Shown one piece after another: positions 2,177 to 9,946 of a stretch of 10,568 nt of DNA. Within the stretch, counting starts at the first letter, position 1. Each line of letters opens with the position of its first letter. Below the pieces are notes generated by a model, which did not search any database, was not told where the DNA came from, and saw only the letters and a list, made by a program, of their open reading frames with translations. The DNA is from Rubrivivax sp. (GTDB lineage: Bacteria; Pseudomonadota; Gammaproteobacteria; Burkholderiales; Burkholderiaceae_C): contig JADZCL010000194.1 of assembly GCA_020851615.1 (NCBI GenBank), positions 1 through 10,568 of the forward strand. Reading direction: 5' to 3'. The translations under genes and the position numbers were made by a program.

Positions 2177-3097
2177 ATGCAAGCAAGCGATCAGGCTGCA
2201 CCATCAGTGCGCAGGTTCCGGCCATGGCTGGTGGTCCTGTTGGCCACGCTGCCTTGGCTCCACGGCTGCGACGAGAAGAAGAAGGAGCGTCCACAGAGTC
2301 AGATTGCCGCACGCGTGGACGGCCATGAGATCACCCTGACGCAGATCAGGCACGTGCTGGAACAGCAACAGCCGCCGCTGCGGGCCGAGCAGCTCGATGC
2401 CGCCAGTCGCCAGGTGCTGGCCCACCTGATCGACCAGCGGCTGCTGGTGGATGAGGCAAAGCGTCTGGAGCTCGAGCGTGAACCGCGTGTGCGCGAGCGG
2501 CTGGAGACTGCCCGACACGAAGTCCTGGCCCGTGCCGTGGTCGAGCGCATCGGTGAAGCGGCCAGTGCGCCCACGCCTGCAGAGATCGCTGACTACTATC
2601 GCAGCCACCCCGCGCTGTTCGAGCAACGCCGCGTCTACGTGATCCAGGAGCTGGTCATCGAGTCTTCGCCGCAGCAGCTCGAAACCCTGCGCCAGCAATT
2701 GCAGGCTGCGGCCTCGATCGACGACTTCGCCGCCCGGCTCCGGGCCGACGGCCACCGCCATGCGGTGACGCGTGTGGTCCGTGCGGCCGAGCAGCTGGCG
2801 CCCGCGGCGCTGCAGGCGTTCTCGCACCTGCCCGATGGGGGCTCGATCCTGACTCCCATCCAGAACGGCGCGCTGGTCAGCACGCTGATCGGTTCACGGG
2901 CCGAGGGCCTGACGCCGGAGCAGGCCAGCCCGCTCATCGTGAAACGGCTGCAGGGTGAGCGCCAGCGCGAGCGGGTCGAGCTGGAGTTGCAGGCCCTGCA
3001 CAAGCGGGCACGGATCGAATTCCGCGGTCGCTTTGCACAGGGCGCAGCCTCTGGTGCGAGCGCGACCGATGCGGGCGCGAGTATGCCGAAGATATGA
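2177..3097 (+). CDS. epsD: EpsD-family peptidyl-prolyl cis-trans isomerase-like lipoprotein
   Basis: The protein looks like the EpsD family (TIGR02925), SurA/PrsA-like folding factors encoded in exopolysaccharide loci. An N-terminal signal with hydrophobic core WLVVLLATLPWL ends in the lipobox LHGC (Cys31), so it should be a lipoprotein facing the periplasm. The family pattern follows: an ARVDGHEITLTQI segment, then LAHLIDQRLLVDEAKRLEL, then a helical chaperone-like stretch ending in PTPAEIADYYRSHPALF. The parvulin-like part (about 155-255) is divergent, and isomerase activity is uncertain. The C-terminus is a charged helix with a short Ala/Gly-rich tail. ATG 2177 gives 306 residues. GTG 2207 would give a more compact signal with Cys at position 21 and fits the promoter position better, so the start is unsettled. 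It leads a three-gene run of exported proteins. Confidence 0.8.
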   Translation: MQASDQAAPSVRRFRPWLVVLLATLPWLHGCDEKKKERPQSQIAARVDGHEITLTQIRHVLEQQQPPLRAEQLDAASRQVLAHLIDQRLLVDEAKRLELEREPRVRERLETARHEVLARAVVERIGEAASAPTPAEIADYYRSHPALFEQRRVYVIQELVIESSPQQLETLRQQLQAAASIDDFAARLRADGHRHAVTRVVRAAEQLAPAALQAFSHLPDGGSILTPIQNGALVSTLIGSRAEGLTPEQASPLIVKRLQGERQRERVELELQALHKRARIEFRGRFAQGAASGASATDAGASMPKI

Positions 3098-3150
3098 TTT
3101 CGGGCGCCCTGCCTCCTTGTCCTTCCACCACTCCTGCAGGCGCAGTGACT

Positions 3151-3155
3151 GGAGA
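3151..3155 (+). promoter_or_regulatory. Ribosome binding site GGAGA of the binding-protein gene
   Basis: GGAGA lies 4 bases before ATG 3160 and 7 bases before ATG 3163. It is one of the clearer Shine-Dalgarno matches on the + strand of this window. It argues against the longest frame, whose ATG at 3094 overlaps the epsD stop (ATGA) and would put about 65 residues ahead of the lipobox cysteine. Confidence 0.55.
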
Positions 3156-3159
3156 CACG

Positions 3160-4383
3160 ATGATGCGTTTGGCCCGCCCCGAGCAGTGCGCGACTTCCGA
3201 GCATGACCCGCAAGGCCGTCGCCGTGCGGCGGGCGTCGTGGCCCGTGTGGCGGCGGCTGTCGGGCTGTCCGCGCTGCTGGCCCTGGGCGCCTGTTCCAGC
3301 GAGCCCGACGTCATCAAGATCGGCGTCGGCCAGCCGCTCACCGGTCCGCTGGCCGCGCTCGGGCAGGACATGGTCAACGGCGTGCGCATGGCGGTCGATG
3401 AAATCAATGCCGTCGGCGGTGTGCGTCTGGGCACCCGGCGCGTCAAGATGGAGGTCGTGACCGTTGACGACAAATCGGACGCGAAGACGGGGATTGCCGG
3501 CGCGCAGTCGCTCGTTGCAGCCGGCGTCACGGTAGCGGTGGCACATCTGAACTCCGGTGTGAGCATCGCGGCGGCCAAGACCTACGCCGAGGCCGGTGTG
3601 CCGCAGCTTGCGATCTCGACCAACCCGGCCTACACGCAGCAAGGCCTGCCCACGACGCTGCGCCTGGTTGCCAACGACACGCTGCAGGCCAAGGCGCTGG
3701 GCTCCTACGCAGGCCAGCTGCCGGGGGCCGAGCGCTTTGCCGTCGTCGACGACGGCACGCCCTACGGCAAGGGACTGGCCGACGCCGCGGCCAAGGAACT
3801 CGCGGCGGCCAAGAAGGAGGTGTTGCTGCGCCAGACCACCGACGACAAGACGACCGACTTTGGCGCCCTGGTCGATGCGATGGGCAAGGGCAAGGTGGAC
3901 GTGCTGGTTGCCGCGCTGAACGACTTCCAGATCGAGGCCATCGTCCAGCTCGTGGGCAAGGCCGGGATGCAGCGCCTGCGGATCATCGGCGGCGATACGG
4001 TGAAGACCGACCGCATGGCCAAGGTCAGCCACCCGGCGGTGACGATCTATGCCACCTCACCCATCGTCGATGCACGCGAGTTCCAGGCTGGTACGACGCA
4101 TTTCCTGAGCAATTTCCGCAAGCGCTTCGGCAGCGACCCGGTCTACGGCGCACACTACGCCTATGACACGGTCTACCTGGTGGCTGATGCGATGACGCGC
4201 AACAAGAGCGCCGATCGGGCGCGGCTGCTGCAGCGCCTGAAGGATCCGCAGTTCGACGGCAACGCGCCGGTCACCGGCTTCATGCGCTTTGGCGCCGACG
4301 GCGAGCAGCGCTACTCGGCCGTGGCCGTCTACCTGCTGCGCGACGGAGTCTGGCAGCTCCAGTTGCGCAGCGATCGCTGGTAG
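3160..4383 (+). CDS. LivK-type branched-chain amino acid ABC transporter substrate-binding lipoprotein (orphan)
   Basis: This is a periplasmic binding protein of the Peripla_BP_6 / Leu-Ile-Val-binding type (407 residues). The mature part opens with IKIGVGQPLTGPLAALGQDM, continues with NGVRMAVDEINAVGGV and a VTVDDKSDAKTGIAGAQSLV segment, and has the hinge-region pattern AVVDDGTPYGKGLADAAAKEL. Near the end are GAHYAYDTVYLVADAM and VTGFMRFGADGE, both typical of the family. A hydrophobic stretch ends in lipobox LGAC (Cys45), so it is probably a lipoprotein. The segment before the hydrophobic core is long (about 27 residues) and contains RRR, so a Tat-like signal or a later start (GTG 3238, Cys at 19) is possible. 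ATG 3160 follows GGAGA. No permease or ATPase gene is nearby; the ligand cannot be deduced. It follows epsD by 62 bases and precedes the caspase gene by 8. Confidence 0.85.
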   Translation: MMRLARPEQCATSEHDPQGRRRAAGVVARVAAAVGLSALLALGACSSEPDVIKIGVGQPLTGPLAALGQDMVNGVRMAVDEINAVGGVRLGTRRVKMEVVTVDDKSDAKTGIAGAQSLVAAGVTVAVAHLNSGVSIAAAKTYAEAGVPQLAISTNPAYTQQGLPTTLRLVANDTLQAKALGSYAGQLPGAERFAVVDDGTPYGKGLADAAAKELAAAKKEVLLRQTTDDKTTDFGALVDAMGKGKVDVLVAALNDFQIEAIVQLVGKAGMQRLRIIGGDTVKTDRMAKVSHPAVTIYATSPIVDAREFQAGTTHFLSNFRKRFGSDPVYGAHYAYDTVYLVADAMTRNKSADRARLLQRLKDPQFDGNAPVTGFMRFGADGEQRYSAVAVYLLRDGVWQLQLRSDRW

Positions 4384-4391
4384 CCCTGCGC

Positions 4392-6476
4392 ATGAACCTG
4401 TGCCTGCTGCGTCGCTGCCTGTATCCGCTGCTGCTGGCGCTGCTCGTGGCGGGCTGGGTGGCGCCGGCGCAGGCCCGTCGCCTGGCGCTGGTGGTCGGCA
4501 ACGATGCGTACCAGAAGGTGGTCAAGCTCGATCGCGCCGGCGCCGACGCCGAGGCGGTGGCGCGCGAGCTCGGCGCCGCAGGCTTTGAGGTCTCGCTGCA
4601 CCGGGACCTGAGCAACACGCGCTTTGCTGTGGCGGTCTCCGAGTTCTACGACAAGGTGAAGAAGGGCGACGAGGTCGTCGTCTTCTACGCCGGGCACGGC
4701 GTGCAGACCGAGCGTGGCGCACAACTGCTGCCGATCGACATCGAGGGCGACACCGAGTTCGTCGTGGAGCGGCTGTCGCAACCGGTCAACGGCCTGCTCG
4801 ACAGCCTCGAGCGACTGCAGCCGCGCGTGTCGCTGGTGATCATCGACGCGTGCCGAGACAACCCGCTGCGCGCGCAAGGACGCTCGATCGGCGCAGCACG
4901 CGGCCTCTCCGGCCCCAACGTGGCGCGCGGGCAGATGCTGATGTTCTCGGCCGCCAGCCGCGAGCGTGCGCTCGATTCGCTGGGCAAGGACGACAAGAAC
5001 GCCAACGGCGTCTTCACGCGCGAGTTGGTGGCACGCCTGCGCACGCCGGGCATGCCCTTCGAGAAGGTCGCGCGCGAGGTGCAGAACGCGGTCGAGCAGC
5101 TCGCGGCCACCGTCAATCACAAGCAGCGGCCGCTGGTCGTCAACGATTCGATCGGCGACTTCGCCTTCTACCCGGCCGCAGGCGCGGCACCCGCCGCACC
5201 CGTGGCCGCGCCGGCGCCCGACGCCGCCCAGCTGGCGGCCTCGCGCGAGGACCGCTTCTGGGATGGTGTGCTCAAGGCGGACACGGTGGAGGCCTATCGC
5301 GGCTATCTGGAGCGCTACCCGCAGGGCGAGTACGCCGTGGTTGCGCGGGCGGCCATCGCCAAGCGCATGCCCGCAGGCGGTGCCGTGGTGGCGCAGAACA
5401 GCACGCGTGGGGCCGACGGGGGGCATGCCGACGCCGGGGCGTCGAGCACGCCGGCCGCAGCGGCACAGCCGGCCTTGCTGCCGGCACCTGCCGCCGCGCC
5501 GGCTGCACCGGCTGCACCGCCTGCGGCGACAGCCCCAGGCGTTGCACCCGGCACGGCGCCTGCCGCCGCAGCGCCCGTGCCCGGCGTGGCACAGCCGGCG
5601 CCGGCAGCGGCTTCGTCACCCGCAGGTGCGCTGGCGCGCCAGCATGCGGCCTATGCACTGCCCAACGGCGACCGCTTCGAGGGCGACGTGCAGGGCAACC
5701 GGCGCAACGGCCAGGGGGTGTACCGGTTTGCCAATGGCGACCGCTACGAGGGCCAGTTCGCCGACGACCGCTTCATGGGCCAGGGCGTGATGCACTACGC
5801 CAGCGGCGACCGCTACGCGGGGGGCTTCCTCGACATCGCCCGCCAGGGCAAGGGCACGATGGTGTTTGCCAACGGGGATCGCTACGAGGGTGAGTTCGAC
5901 AACAACCTCTACGAGGGGCAGGGCAGCCTGAGCTTTGCCTCCGGCGAGCGCTACACGGGCGGCTTCCACGGGGGGCGAAAGAGCGGGCAGGGCGAGCAGA
6001 TCTTTGCCAACCAGGACCGCTACAGCGGGCCTTTTGCCGATGACAAGCCGCAGGGCAAGGGGACGATGCGCCACGCCAACGGCGATGTCTACGAAGGGGA
6101 GTTCGTGCGGGGCGTGAAGCAGGGTCTCGGTCGCTACCGCTTTGCCAACGGCGACCGCTATGAAGGCGGCTTCGAGGGTGGCCTGTTCAGCGGCAAGGGC
6201 GTCCTGGTGCTGGCCAATGGCGACCGCTACGAAGGCGGCTTCCACAACAATGCCAAGGAAGGCGCGGGCGTGCACTACTTCGCCAACAAGGACCGCTACG
6301 AAGGCGCGTTCCACAACGGGGTGCAGCACGGCCAGGGCACGCACTACTTCGCCAACGGGGACCGCTACGTCGGCCCCTTCGTCGCCGGGGTGCGCCATGG
6401 CAAGGGCAGCTACCGTTTCGCCAGCGGCGACGTGCGCGAGATCGAGTACGACAAGGGCGTCGAGAAGACGCCCTGA
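4392..6476 (+). CDS. Secreted caspase-like (peptidase C14) protein with eleven C-terminal MORN repeats
   Basis: This 694-residue protein has a Sec signal peptide (core YPLLLALLVAGWV, probable cut after AQA, residue 28). A caspase/metacaspase-like p20 domain follows (about 29-260). It starts RLALVVGNDAYQKV and carries the catalytic His102 in VVFYAGHGVQ and Cys154 in LVIIDACRDNP, so the dyad is intact. The later FSAASRERALDS and NGVFTRELVARLRTPG correspond to the substrate-side part of bacterial C14 proteins. A segment FWDGVLKADTVEAYRGYLER (289-308), common after bacterial caspase domains, leads into an Ala/Pro-rich linker (about 352-412). Residues 427-679 are eleven MORN units, with a short 15-residue tail. 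The start lies 8 bases after the binding-protein stop with no clear Shine-Dalgarno, suggesting coupled translation. The target is unknown; export points to an envelope role rather than cytoplasmic cell death. Confidence 0.88.
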   Translation: MNLCLLRRCLYPLLLALLVAGWVAPAQARRLALVVGNDAYQKVVKLDRAGADAEAVARELGAAGFEVSLHRDLSNTRFAVAVSEFYDKVKKGDEVVVFYAGHGVQTERGAQLLPIDIEGDTEFVVERLSQPVNGLLDSLERLQPRVSLVIIDACRDNPLRAQGRSIGAARGLSGPNVARGQMLMFSAASRERALDSLGKDDKNANGVFTRELVARLRTPGMPFEKVAREVQNAVEQLAATVNHKQRPLVVNDSIGDFAFYPAAGAAPAAPVAAPAPDAAQLAASREDRFWDGVLKADTVEAYRGYLERYPQGEYAVVARAAIAKRMPAGGAVVAQNSTRGADGGHADAGASSTPAAAAQPALLPAPAAAPAAPAAPPAATAPGVAPGTAPAAAAPVPGVAQPAPAAASSPAGALARQHAAYALPNGDRFEGDVQGNRRNGQGVYRFANGDRYEGQFADDRFMGQGVMHYASGDRYAGGFLDIARQGKGTMVFANGDRYEGEFDNNLYEGQGSLSFASGERYTGGFHGGRKSGQGEQIFANQDRYSGPFADDKPQGKGTMRHANGDVYEGEFVRGVKQGLGRYRFANGDRYEGGFEGGLFSGKGVLVLANGDRYEGGFHNNAKEGAGVHYFANKDRYEGAFHNGVQHGQGTHYFANGDRYVGPFVAGVRHGKGSYRFASGDVREIEYDKGVEKTP
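5670..6428 (+). repeat. Eleven tandem 69-bp units encoding 23-residue MORN repeats
   Basis: Eleven consecutive units of exactly 69 bases code for 23-residue repeats with consensus DRYEGxFxxxxxxGxGxxxFANG. Gly5, Gly14, Gly16 and Ala21 are present in all eleven, and Phe7 in ten (Val in unit 1). There is no insertion or deletion between units. The DNA is similar but not identical: codon choice varies between units, so the array is not a very recent amplification. MORN repeats (PF02493) form an elongated beta-sheet that in other proteins binds membranes, phospholipids or partner proteins. A final half-unit, DVREIEY, begins a twelfth copy and then diverges. Confidence 0.93.
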
Positions 6477-6502
6477 GGCCGGCTGCGGCCGACCTCAGGG
6501 CG
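6469..6502. terminator. Bidirectional hairpin between convergent caspase and rfbC genes, containing both stop codons
   Basis: Perfect 10-base arms, CGCCCTGAGG (6469-6478) and CCTCAGGGCG (6493-6502), enclose 14 bases. Those can extend the stem by 4 bp beyond one C-A mismatch, closed by a TGCG loop. The + strand gene stops at TGA 6474-6476 in the left arm; the - strand gene stops at the complement of TCA 6495-6497 in the right arm. On the - strand the hairpin is followed by TCTTCTCG, a weak pyrimidine/T tract. On the + strand a G/C-rich sequence follows, so intrinsic termination there is doubtful. The convergent position supports a shared termination role. Confidence 0.65.
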
Positions 6503-7073
6503 CCGGCGGCAGTTCGGCCGCGTTCAGTCGCGGTGCGGCAGCGTCCTTGGCGGCGACCAGGGGTGCGGCGCCGATGCGCGCCAGCGGCCAGTCGATGCCG
6601 ATGGCCGCGTCGTCCCAGCGCAGCGCACGCTCGCAGTCGCGGGCGTAGACGTCGGTCGTCTTGTAGAGGAAATGCGTGTCGTCGGCGAGGGCGAGAAAAC
6701 CGTGCGCGAAACCCTCGGGGATCCAGAGCTGGCGACCGTTCTCGGCACTCAACTCGACGCCCGTCCAGTTCCCGAAGGTGGGCGAGCCGCGGCGGATGTC
6801 GACCGCCACGTCAAACGCGGCGCCACGCACCACGCGTACCAGCTTGCCCTGCGGATGCGGCGGCAACTGGTAGTGCAGGCCGCGCAGCACCCCGGCCTTG
6901 CTGCAGGAGTGGTTGTCCTGCACGAAGGCGCGCGGCGGCGGCAGGCCGAGCATGCGCAGGCCGGCGTCGAAGCGGGACTGGTTCCAGCTCTCCATGAACC
7001 AGCCGCGCTCGTCGGCGAACACCGCCGGCTCGACGATGACGACGCCGGGCAGGCTGCTTGGCAGCAGCTTCAC
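6495..7073 (-). CDS. rfbC: dTDP-4-dehydrorhamnose 3,5-epimerase
   Basis: RfbC (RmlC) inverts C3 and C5 of dTDP-4-dehydro-6-deoxyglucose, the third step in making dTDP-L-rhamnose. The 192-residue length is within the family range. Family signatures are visible: [13 protein letters not shown] near the start, GVLRGLHYQ with the catalytic base His67, [15 protein letters not shown] (87-101), [11 protein letters not shown] (117-127), and FLYKTTDVY, in which Tyr137 occupies the position of the catalytic acid (70 residues after the His, as in characterised RmlC enzymes). The start is a GTG at 7073 that overlaps the rfbA stop by four bases (GTGA), implying translational coupling. It is the last gene of the nucleotide-sugar operon and ends inside the shared hairpin. 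Confidence 0.95.
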
Positions 7074-7954
7074 CGGAACACCTTCTCGGCCAGGACCTGC
7101 ATCAGATATTGCCCGTAGCCGTTCTTCAGCATCGGCTGCGCCTGGCGCTCGAGCTCGGCGGCGCTGATCCAGCCGGCGCGGTAGGCGATCTCCTCCGGGC
7201 AGGCAACCTTCAGGCCCTGGCGCTTTTCCAGGGTGGCGATGAACTGGCTCGCCTCGAGCAGGCTGTCGTGGGTGCCGGTGTCCAGCCAGGCGTAGCCGCG
7301 GCCCATGATCTCGACCTCGAGCTGGTGCTGGCGCAGGTAGCGGGCGTTGACCTCGGTGATCTCCAGCTCGCCGCGCTGGCTTGGCTTGATGTCGGCGGCG
7401 ATGTCGCAGACCTGCTCGTCGTAGAAGTAGAGGCCGGTGACCGCGTAGTTGCTCTTGGGTCGTGCCGGCTTTTCCTCGATGCTGATCGCGTGCCGCTGGT
7501 CATCGAACTCGACCACGCCGTAGCGCTCGGGGTCATGCACGTGGTAGGCGAACACCGAGGCGCCGCTGGCACGCGCGTGGGCACGGCGCAGCAGCGGCTG
7601 GAAGTCGTGGCCATGGAAGATGTTGTCGCCCAGCACCAGCGCGCTCGGGGCGCCGCCGATGAACTGGCGCCCGAGGATGAAGGCCTGCGCCAGGCCGTCT
7701 GGACTGGGCTGCACGCAGTAGCTCAGGTTCATGCCCCAGCGGCTGCCGTCACCCAGCAGCGCGGCAAAGCGCGGCGTGTCCTGCGGCGTGCTGATGACGA
7801 GCACGTCGCGCATGCCCGCCAGCATCAGCGTCGAGAGCGGGTAGTAGACCATCGGCTTGTCGTACACCGGCAGCAACTGCTTGCTCATGGCGAGAGTGGC
7901 CGGATGCAGCCGGGTGCCGGAGCCCCCGGCGAGGATGATGCCCTTGCGGTTCAT
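7070..7954 (-). CDS. rfbA: Glucose-1-phosphate thymidylyltransferase
   Basis: RfbA (RmlA) joins glucose-1-phosphate and dTTP to give dTDP-glucose, the first step of dTDP-L-rhamnose synthesis. The protein is 294 residues, the normal size. The nucleotide-binding signature [11 protein letters not shown] is at residues 10-20, followed by [20 protein letters not shown]. Metal-binding aspartates are expected at D110 (in [10 protein letters not shown]) and D225 (in WLDTGTHDS), and the [20 protein letters not shown] stretch (159-178) is characteristic. ATG 7954 was chosen because residues 1-10 ([10 protein letters not shown]) match the family start; the frame upstream lies in the rfbD 3' region. It is separated from rfbD by 28 bases, the only real gap in this operon, and overlaps rfbC. 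In related enzymes dTDP-rhamnose inhibits RmlA allosterically. Confidence 0.97.
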
Positions 7955-7982
7955 GACGGGGTGAGTCCTGCAGGTGGCGGGT

Positions 7983-8882
7983 TCAGACGCCGAGCGCTTC
8001 GTGCAGCATGCGCTCGACGCCGGCTTGCCAGTGCGGCAGCACGAGGCCAAAGGTCCGCTGCAGCCGGGTCGTGTCCAGGCGCGAGTTCAGCGGCCGGCGC
8101 GCCGGCGTCGGGAAGGCGTGGGTCGGGACGGGGTGGACGGCGTCTGGCGCCACGCGCACCGTCTGCCCATGCGCGCGCGCCCACTCGATCACGCAGCGCG
8201 CGTAGCCGTGCCAGCTCGTCTGCCCGCCGGCCACGCAGTGGTAGGTGCCGGCCAGGGCCGGGTTGGCGAGTGCGGCGCGCAGCGCATGCGCTGACGCGTC
8301 GGCCAGCAGGTCGGCGCCGGTGGGCGCGCCGATCTGGTCGTCGATGACGCGCAACTCGTCGCGCTCGGCGGCCAGGCGCAGCATGGTGCGCGCGAAGTTG
8401 GCGCCGCGTGCGGCATAGACCCAGCTCGTGCGCAGGATCAGGTGGTGGCAGCCACTGGCGCGGATCGCCTCCTCGCCCTCGAGCTTGGTCTGGCCGTAGA
8501 TGTTCAAGGGGCCCGTTGCAGCGTCCTCGCTGCGTGGGGTGCTGCCACTGCCGTCGAAGACGTAGTCGGTGCTGTAGTGCAGCAGCCAGGCGCCCTGTGC
8601 GGCCGCAGCGCGCGCCAGCACGCCCGGTGCGGTGGCGTTGAGCGCGCGTGCACGCGCGGGCTCCCCCTCGGCCTGATCGACCGCGGTGTGCGCCGCCGCG
8701 TTGGCGATGAGCGCCGGCTGCACGCGCTGCACCAGATCGGCCAGCGACTCGGGGTCGCTGAAGTCCGCGCGCAGCGGCGCCGGTGAATCGAAGTCGCAGG
8801 CGAGCACCTCGCCCAGCGGCGCGAGCGCGCGCTGCAACTCCCAACCCACCTGGCCCTTGCAGCCCAGCAGCAGGATCTTCAT
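7983..8882 (-). CDS. rfbD: dTDP-4-dehydrorhamnose reductase
   Basis: RfbD (RmlD) reduces dTDP-4-dehydro-L-rhamnose to dTDP-L-rhamnose with NAD(P)H, the final step of the pathway. The 299-residue protein is a short-chain dehydrogenase/reductase of the extended type. It has the nucleotide-binding GCKGQVG (7-13), [12 protein letters not shown] (61-72), the family block STDYVFDG (104-111), the catalytic YGQTK (Tyr129, Lys133) and RTSWVY (151-156). ATG 8880-8882 overlaps the rfbB stop (ATGA, four bases), which fixes the start and implies coupled translation. Its placement between rfbB and rfbA follows the common rfbBDAC order. Confidence 0.97.
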
Positions 8883-9946
8883 CCGCGGCCCGCGTAGTTC
8901 GTTGCCACCCAGTCGCGGTAGCTGCCGCTCTGCACGGCGGCCACCCAGGCAGCGTGCGCCAGGTACCAGTGCACGGTCTTGCGGATGCCGCTGTCGAAGG
9001 TCTCGCCGGGGCGCCAGCCGAGTTCGCGCTCGATCTTGCGCGCATCGATCGCGTAGCGGCGGTCGTGGCCGGGGCGGTCCTTCACGTGCGTGATGAGGCG
9101 CGCGTAGGTGCCGCCCGGGTCGGGCCGCAACTCGTCGAGCAGGCCACAGATGGTGTGCACGATCGCGCGGTTGGGCTGTTCGTTCCAGCCACCGATGTTG
9201 TAGACCTCGCCCGGTGTGCCCCGGGCGAGCACGGTGCGGATCGCGCTGCAGTGGTCGCCCACGTAGAGCCAGTCGCGCACCTGCTGCCCGTCGCCGTAGA
9301 TCGGCAGCGGCTTGCCGGCGAGCGCGTTGGCGATCATCAGCGGAATCAGCTTCTCGGGGAACTGCAGGGGCCCGTAGTTGTTGCTGCAGTTGGTCGTCAG
9401 CACCGGCAGGCCGTAGGTGTGGTGCCAGGCGCGCACGAGGTGGTCGCTGGCGGCCTTGCTGGCGCTGTAGGGGCTGTTGGGGGCGTAGGGATGCTGCTCG
9501 GTGAATGCCGGGGCATCGGGGGCCAGGCTGCCGTAGACCTCGTCGGTGCTGACGTGCAGGAAGCGGAATGCCGCGCGGGCGTCGTGCGGCAGCGCGCTCC
9601 AATACGCGCGCACGGCTTCCAGCAGCGTGAACGTGCCTTCGACGTTGGTCTTGATGAAGGCGCCGGGGCCGTGGATGCTGCGGTCGACGTGGCTCTCGGC
9701 GGCCAAATGCAGGACGGCACGCGGTCGGTGCTCCTGCAGCAGGCGGTCCAGCAGCTCGCGCGTACCGATGTCGCCGTGCACGAAGAGGTGGCGGCCGTCG
9801 TCGGCCAGCGCGGCCAGGTTCTGCCGGTTGCCGGCGTAGGTGAGGGCGTCGAGGTTGACGATGGGCTCGGCTGCCGGGTCGGCGAGCCAGTCGAGCACGA
9901 AGTTGCTGCCGATGAAGCCGGCGCCGCCGGTGACGAGAAGAGTCAT
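8879..9946 (-). CDS. rfbB: dTDP-glucose 4,6-dehydratase
   Basis: RfbB (RmlB) converts dTDP-glucose to dTDP-4-dehydro-6-deoxyglucose using tightly bound NAD, the second step to dTDP-L-rhamnose. The protein has 355 residues, as expected. The N-terminal Rossmann motif is TGGAGFIG (6-13). [11 protein letters not shown] lies at 81-91. The active-site triad region is STDEVYG (133-139, with Asp135 and Glu136 as the usual acid/base pair), followed by YSASK (Tyr160, Lys164). [17 protein letters not shown] and [14 protein letters not shown] are characteristic of RmlB. ATG 9944-9946 overlaps the stop of the upstream manC-type gene by four bases (ATGA). Confidence 0.97.

Follow-up and report, generated by a model that had tools for sequence, protein, structure and literature searches.

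A caspase-fold peptidase domain fused to a MORN-repeat array in an apparently exported protein of Rubrivivax

Most discussion of bacterial caspase homologues has centred on stress, death or defence, and for the majority no function is known. The eukaryotic paracaspase MALT1 is an intracellular signalling protein with other partner domains. Bacterial metacaspases and orthocaspases carry a Peptidase_C14 (C14) domain with varied partner domains, and N-terminal helices that may be signal peptides have been noted for such proteins (PMC3501461); the word MORN is absent from the main text of that survey. Open reading frames (ORFs) combining MORN with a metacaspase are listed for Baltic Sea metagenomes (PMC4933709, Table 1), six in all, with MORN before the protease and one to four MORN per ORF. 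Here we describe a C14-MORN fusion gene on contig JADZCL010000194.1 (assembly GCA_020851615.1) of Rubrivivax sp., the whole of which, 10,568 nucleotides, was analyzed and is referred to below as the window. We give an even chance to the reading that its product is an exported C14 cysteine endopeptidase with a C-terminal MORN array as its docking part.

The gene occupies positions 4392-6476 of the forward strand and encodes 694 amino acid residues from an ATG start without an internal stop. A signal peptide, the C14 domain, a helical segment, an Ala/Pro linker and eleven 23-residue MORN units follow each other along the protein (Table 1), and it is near certain that C14, linker and MORN array lie in one polypeptide. 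The source genome is 76% complete in 435 contigs, the window being one of these; since separately assembled genomes encode end-to-end equivalents of the same full-length protein, the fusion is no assembly artefact. It is the sole C14 match above the search threshold in its own genome. The signal peptide was judged by eye from the sequence; it has a basic n-region, a hydrophobic core and the motif PAQA before the RR at the cleavage point, and its form is retained in aligned orthologs although its sequence drifts (ratio of nonsynonymous to synonymous change, dN/dS, 0.48-0.57). On reading, the N-terminus has no lipobox, and the end of the protein (...EYDKGVEKTP) has no C-terminal PEP sorting signal of a PEP-CTERM/exosortase substrate. 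A preliminary description of the locus had named the Sec signal, a C14 domain with His102 and Cys154, the Ala/Pro linker and eleven MORN units, all of which were recovered here; it had passed over the first Ala/Pro stretch and the helical segment, which separate C14 from the main linker.

To judge by the sampling, which bears on the earlier question of how widespread the architecture might be, the fusion is well supported but uncommon within one bacterial family and has independent parallels. One contig scan of genomes yielded 22 loci, three of which are full-length orthologs (L002, L003 from Rubrivivax sp. SCN 71-131, and L004; 72-74% identical in the best segment), while at the remaining 19 it is the MORN part that matches. 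When 81 genomes of the genus were searched with the N-terminal 261 residues, 36 gave some C14 match and five, including the window's own and the three just mentioned, gave close orthologs (at least 65% identity), each with eleven MORN units. A nine-unit version was found in five further genomes of the family. Within the family, 101 of 200 sampled genomes were positive for C14 and 71 of 399 for MORN. Of the 70 MORN-positive genomes other than the window's own, 48 had the surroundings of MORN ORFs fetched, usually for one ORF each, 22 being left out; with the window included, C14 precedes MORN in ORFs of 8/49 genomes and follows it in one, so that nine are counted, a figure that may fall short of the true number of fusions in the sample. 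A profile of the C14 domain of the clade described below (A2; E-value 1e-25) matched 16 of 369 genomes of the class, the window's own counted. Another 21 ORFs from the class have varied tails (by inspection FGE-sulfatase-like, PEGA-like and others) or end soon after C14, and one of them, L187, has a short MORN-like tail. In the phylum sample MORN occurs in 91/398 genomes; no C14 was detected in MORN ORFs from 39 of the 90 other genomes with a local profile at an E-value of 1e-5, which very divergent domains may escape. A phage or plasmid origin was considered and rejected: two phage records matched in MORN only, and plasmid matches were below 60% identity, none covering 80% of the query.

Phylogenetic relationships were examined with a non-random set of 65 C14 rows, mostly the best-scoring family and genus loci together with L002-L004 and an Azospirillum plasmid protein. 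In the maximum-likelihood tree of these domains, in which 16 rows (including two duplicate pairs) are labelled as having MORN, the ten nine- and eleven-unit proteins form one clade with support of 100/98. The MORN label needs four changes on the tree, three of them forced by well-supported branches. The tree alone does not separate gains from losses of MORN, and from these sequences MORN seems to have joined C14 more than once. The labelled rows outside the main clade are the pair G064 and G019, a protein of G342 with the reversed order, and the Azospirillum protein; the placement of the latter two is unsure because both sit on long branches. For G019 and for G064, the best match of the MORN part is the array of a MORN ORF without detected C14, which suggests module exchange. 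Arrays of this kind occur at L113, L114, L112 and similar family loci, in MORN ORFs with apparent signal peptides and without C14. Within the clade, the nine-unit group is paraphyletic to the eleven-unit group, so that two units were probably gained once. The Azospirillum protein (A. argentinense plasmid p4; L024, 3321-5489) consists of a signal peptide, a C14 domain in which we could read neither the His nor the Cys, two SH3-like segments and MORN; its neighbours are tssA, a Ser/Thr kinase gene and a PP2C gene, and it reads as a pseudo-caspase at a type VI secretion locus.

The C14 domain was matched by Pfam at residues 29-251 (E-value 1.9e-26; 93.6 bits against a curated cut-off of 21.4). 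His102 lies within YAGHGVQ and Cys154, the only Cys of the protein outside the signal peptide, within IDACRDNP; both are invariant among seven representatives, as are Asp52 and Asp152. Compared with solved structures, the profile of the clade finds MALT1 as the closest solved C14 relative (E-value 1.1e-9) and also caspase-1. In the MALT1 alignments shown, GHG and the Cys are aligned, and Asp52 and Asp152 stand opposite MALT1 Asp residues, which we take to be those of the Arg-binding S1 pocket. Cleavage after a basic residue is proposed on the basis of this correspondence, the specificity probably being for Arg/Lys. Comparison of the window with three orthologs gave dN/dS values of 0.10-0.18 (C14), 0.14-0.18 (helical segment), 0.34-0.42 (MORN) and 0.34-0.49 (linker, which shows a high level of synonymous change); no part of the fusion is more constrained than C14, which is under strong purifying selection, and constraint on MORN and linker is weaker. 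The constraint on C14 speaks against a C14 domain that no longer cuts and a protein that is a structural scaffold. Inactive forms exist, since the Azospirillum C14-SH3-MORN protein has, as far as can be read, lost both catalytic residues, but both GHG and DACR are preserved throughout the ten-member clade, and we regard a dead scaffold as rather improbable. Judged on its sequence, the fusion protein is likely to be exported and active as a protease.

Between the two large domains, the helical segment has a mean pairwise identity of 0.64 among the seven representatives and is helical in the AlphaFold model; MORN-less relatives have segments after C14 that resemble it on inspection. The 95-residue linker (69% Ala+Pro+Gly) is conserved at only 0.15 identity among representatives, and its predicted local distance difference test score (pLDDT) is 25-42 from residue 331 on.

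The Pfam MORN model gave an E-value of 4e-57 (187.2 bits against a cut-off of 22.5), with seven stretches passing individually, and a custom motif revealed eleven units at a constant 23-residue spacing, starting at residues 428, 451 and so on to 658. The AlphaFold model has an overall mean pLDDT of 58 and a predicted template modelling score of 0.42; within it the MORN part forms a continuous beta array with pLDDT of 90-95 (residues 511-680) and 71-88 (residues 421-510). Its best Foldseek matches are MORN1 of Toxoplasma, Trypanosoma and Plasmodium (E-value 6.8e-22, 31-36% identity). The MORN part is accordingly modelled as an elongated beta-hairpin rod, and the model favours the tether to a long rod put forward in the preliminary description. 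The eleven- and nine-unit proteins differ by a single clean gap of 46 residues, or two units, in all five nine-unit relatives, the exact borders of which depend on the alignment. Units are conserved in register: unit n of the window matches unit n best in 11/11 cases for L003 and 10/11 for G230, and in comparisons with the five nine-unit proteins, units 5-9 of the latter are the best matches of window units 7-11 in 22/25 cases (ties included throughout; units of G027 were renumbered after alignment, which shows nine where the simple motif counts eight). For units 1-6 no comparably clear register with the nine-unit proteins was found. Conservation in register fits a specific binding surface. 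The C-terminal tail (residues 681-692) has a mean identity of 0.49 between the two groups. Among other bacterial arrays, alphaproteobacterial ORFs of 465-610 residues (L005-L018) contain 15-18 MORN units and no C14 motif.

It had been suggested that such a rod may bind lipid; the protease might then be fixed to the inner membrane or to the inner leaflet of the outer one. The name of the repeats does refer to membrane occupation, and phosphatidylethanolamine co-purified with full-length trypanosome MORN1; in the same work, however, MORN1 neither bound vesicles in vitro nor associated with membranes in vivo (PMC7725318). The array described here has a net charge of -2 and an isoelectric point of 6.6, and a charge of this kind does not favour binding to membrane lipids. 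Furthermore, the window protein has no lipobox, whereas most of the MORN-Peptidase_C13 proteins discussed below do by inspection, which implies that the latter obtain their anchor elsewhere than from MORN. A lipid-binding rod is thus unlikely.

Export itself does not set the protein apart, contrary to what had been supposed. A hydrophobic 12-mer lies no more than 60 residues before the C14 domain in 56 of the 63 rows of the C14 set that have upstream sequence; the test is crude, and one of its seven misses is the reversed protein of G342, in which an apparent signal peptide precedes the MORN part. By this measure, and in line with the helices noted in PMC3501461, export is not unusual for C14 proteins of the set. 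Their C-terminal modules vary among related exported proteins, and include the ligand-binding SBP_bac_3 domain and, by inspection, FGE-sulfatase-like ends. Because relatives carry other modules there, the C-terminal part looks like an exchangeable recognition part. One such protein from the same genus (L060; G235:C206) has an apparent signal peptide, C14 at residues 23-250 and SBP_bac_3 (family 3 solute-binding) at residues 393-622, and looks like a ligand-gated protease. The export signal also bears on whether the fusion protein could be an effector of abortive infection or programmed cell death, in the manner of other bacterial caspase homologues. It matches the PADLOC 'caspase' model (E-value 2.2e-12) and, weakly, the NCBIfam EACC1-associated caspase (NF047832), but the latter reaches 49 bits against a cut-off of 140, the protein has an export signal, and at an E-value of 0.001 no PADLOC model matches any of ten proteins encoded beside it in the window (ubiE not included). 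Such a role appears very improbable.

Table 1. Features of the fusion gene and its neighbours in the window.
Feature	Position	Strand	Basis
Sec-type signal peptide, residues 1-28, cleavage between AQA and RR	4392..4475	+	by reading
Peptidase_C14 (caspase-fold) domain, residues 29-260	4476..5171	+	Pfam PF00656
Codon of catalytic His102 (CAC)	4695..4697	+	invariant, aligned with MALT1 GHG
Codon of catalytic Cys154 (TGC)	4851..4853	+	invariant, aligned with Cys of MALT1 DMCR
First Ala/Pro stretch, residues 261-282	5172..5237	+	Ala+Pro+Gly 82%
Helical segment EDRFW...YLERYP.GEY..VAR, residues 283-325	5238..5366	+	conservation, helices in model
Disordered Ala/Pro/Gly linker, residues 326-420	5367..5651	+	composition, low pLDDT
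Eleven MORN units of 23 residues, residues 428-680	5673..6431	+	Pfam, motif, model
MORN units 5-6 (approximate), missing in nine-unit relatives	5949..6086	+	alignment gap
C-terminal tail ending REIEYDKGVEKTP	6432..6473	+	conservation
rmlC-rmlA-rmlD-rmlB cluster, convergent neighbour (synteny marker, not part of system)	6495..9946	-	NCBIfam
EpsD-family peptidyl-prolyl isomerase, upstream neighbour	2177..3097	+	TIGR02925, 184 bits against cut-off of 108.9

The genes around the fusion raise the question of whether the protein serves maturation or quality control at an exopolysaccharide locus, as a protease working together with EpsD and the rml sugar pathway. All four rml genes of the window exceed their NCBIfam equivalog cut-offs, and the cluster lies convergently downstream in the same order in 5/5 eleven-unit genomes, rmlB being cut by the contig end in one. 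In the window epsD lies upstream of the fusion gene, and so do its homologs at L105, where the two are adjacent, and at L107, where about 5.5 kb separate them; in G249 a gene for exosortase EpsH lies about 16 kb upstream of the fusion, and there is a glycosyltransferase gene as well. Against this, the fusion gene is on the strand opposite to rml, there is no epsD homolog in the 19 kb upstream in G249 (nor in the 3.3 kb upstream in L109), and neither epsD nor rml is found around four nine-unit genes. Exosortase does not discriminate either: among 30 genomes tested it was present in 26, comprising 10/10 of the clade (one weak and with a stop) and 16 of 17 from the genus that were chosen for lacking a close ortholog, and it was absent from the three other fusion genomes. 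A link to exosortase and exopolysaccharide, drawn from epsD, rmlCADB and the G249 exosortase, was rejected as unspecific because genomes without a close ortholog have exosortase too, and a role at an exopolysaccharide locus is quite unlikely.

The ORF immediately upstream (3094-4383) encodes a solute-binding protein (Peripla_BP_6) and ends 8 bp before the fusion ORF; a lipobox-like LGACSS lies well inside this longest ORF, and the true start is probably downstream of 3094. An operon with this gene as a general feature was rejected: no such gene stands between epsD and the fusion in G230, none was found in the available stretches upstream in G249 (L108, L166), and further ORFs intervene in L107. 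A small Tim44-like protein (1706-2149) is encoded between ubiE and epsD. One neighbour was scanned for each of four nine-unit genes, revealing RCC1 repeats (L158), recQ (L159 and L161, divergent and near the nine-unit gene in both) and an FAD oxidoreductase (L160). The L158 ORF (6433-9018), two called genes upstream of the nine-unit gene of G288, encodes an 862-residue, eukaryote-like RCC1-repeat protein.

Returning to the exported C14 endopeptidase with a MORN docking part, the protein would be exported by the Sec route and cleaved after Ala28, placing it presumably in the periplasm. There the caspase-fold domain with its intact His102/Cys154 dyad would cut after a basic residue, the linker of about 95 disordered residues would give the enzyme reach, and the MORN rod would bind a specific envelope protein or its own copy, concentrating the protease and possibly activating it by proximity. 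Docking to its own copy has a counterpart in Trypanosoma MORN1, which is reported to dimerise tail-to-tail through its C-terminus (PMC7725318). Several observations weigh against this proposal. Proximity activation is argued by analogy only, and the in-register similarity of the MORN units could reflect descent alone. The C14 domain is poorly modelled, with pLDDT of 20-58 over most of residues 30-280, a low confidence attributable to an AlphaFold alignment of four rows. Lastly, mapping of the neighbours reveals no operon partner conserved across the clade: upstream genes differ among the eleven-unit genomes, and at an E-value of 1e-5 no epsD or rml homolog was found in about 20 kb around each of four nine-unit genes (3.7 kb of surroundings were available for the fifth, in G283). 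Of the preliminary interpretation, then, the export signal, the catalytic dyad and the tether to a rod are supported, while the unusual export and the lipid-binding rod are not. A conserved, apparently exported form with a removable or swappable docking rod offers a tractable route to the partners and substrates of a periplasmic caspase-fold protease.

MORN arrays are also joined to other domains. Peptidase_C13 (C13) belongs to the same clan (CD) as C14. In the phylum sample, four loci (L241, L245-L247) encode eleven MORN units followed by C13 in lipoproteins, as judged from their lipoboxes. In a follow-up of 29 chosen genomes, among them 15 of family f161 picked for having MORN, C13 was found in 20, strongly in 17, and all 15 f161 genomes were positive; no strong match occurred in the ten genomes of the C14-MORN clade. 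The three weak matches sit in nine-unit genomes and are probably cross-matches, since that of G110 lies on its C14 match. Sixteen of the 17 strong C13 ORFs also encode a MORN array, in which 6 to 11 units were counted, and in the 17th (L278) units are visible only with a looser motif. The MORN-then-C13 proteins (L241, L245-L247, L262-L277), mostly with a readable lipobox, come from another family of the class, and L277 from a third; their His and Cys motifs are intact (TSHG and SACYSG or SSCYSG). At L229 (1237-2835, reverse strand), four MORN units are fused to an FGE-sulfatase domain in a putative lipoprotein. We tentatively suggest that MORN arrays serve Gram-negative bacteria as an envelope docking module, that this module has been fused to clan-CD cysteine peptidases repeatedly, and that the products form a hitherto unrecognised class of scaffolded proteases in the periplasm, with rods of fixed length. 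This pattern, put forward with the same reserve, would take in C14 at least twice in one family, the reversed MORN-C14 protein, the Azospirillum pseudo-C14, C13 in the putative lipoproteins of another family, and one clade whose rod changed by exactly two units. If true, the presence of a MORN array in a Gram-negative envelope would point to a scaffolded protease of this class, and what bacterial MORN repeats do would become testable.

Both domains, and ORFs combining MORN with a metacaspase, are already known; no account of the C14-linker-MORN order with its fixed 9-11 units, or of the phylogeny of this architecture, was met in the open-licence literature, where, among the matches listed, no text dealt with a C14-then-MORN protein, and nothing was found on MORN with exosortase or on MORN with C13. 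The f161 proteins resemble the fusion protein in joining a putatively exported clan-CD peptidase to MORN, with 10-11 counted units in 14/16, and differ in having C13 rather than C14, MORN first and a lipobox readable in 14/16. MORN1 of Toxoplasma, Trypanosoma and Plasmodium (6t6q, 6t4r, 6t4d) likewise consists of 23-residue units in an elongated beta rod; it is a eukaryotic protein of MORN only, without a protease. Bradyrhizobium A5ECX2 (PMC3355149) shares the signal peptide, C14 and a C-terminal envelope module, with two YARHG domains in place of MORN. The Baltic Sea ORFs (PMC4933709) likewise hold MORN and a bacterial C14 in one reading frame, whereas in the present proteins C14 comes first, followed by the linker and 9-11 units.

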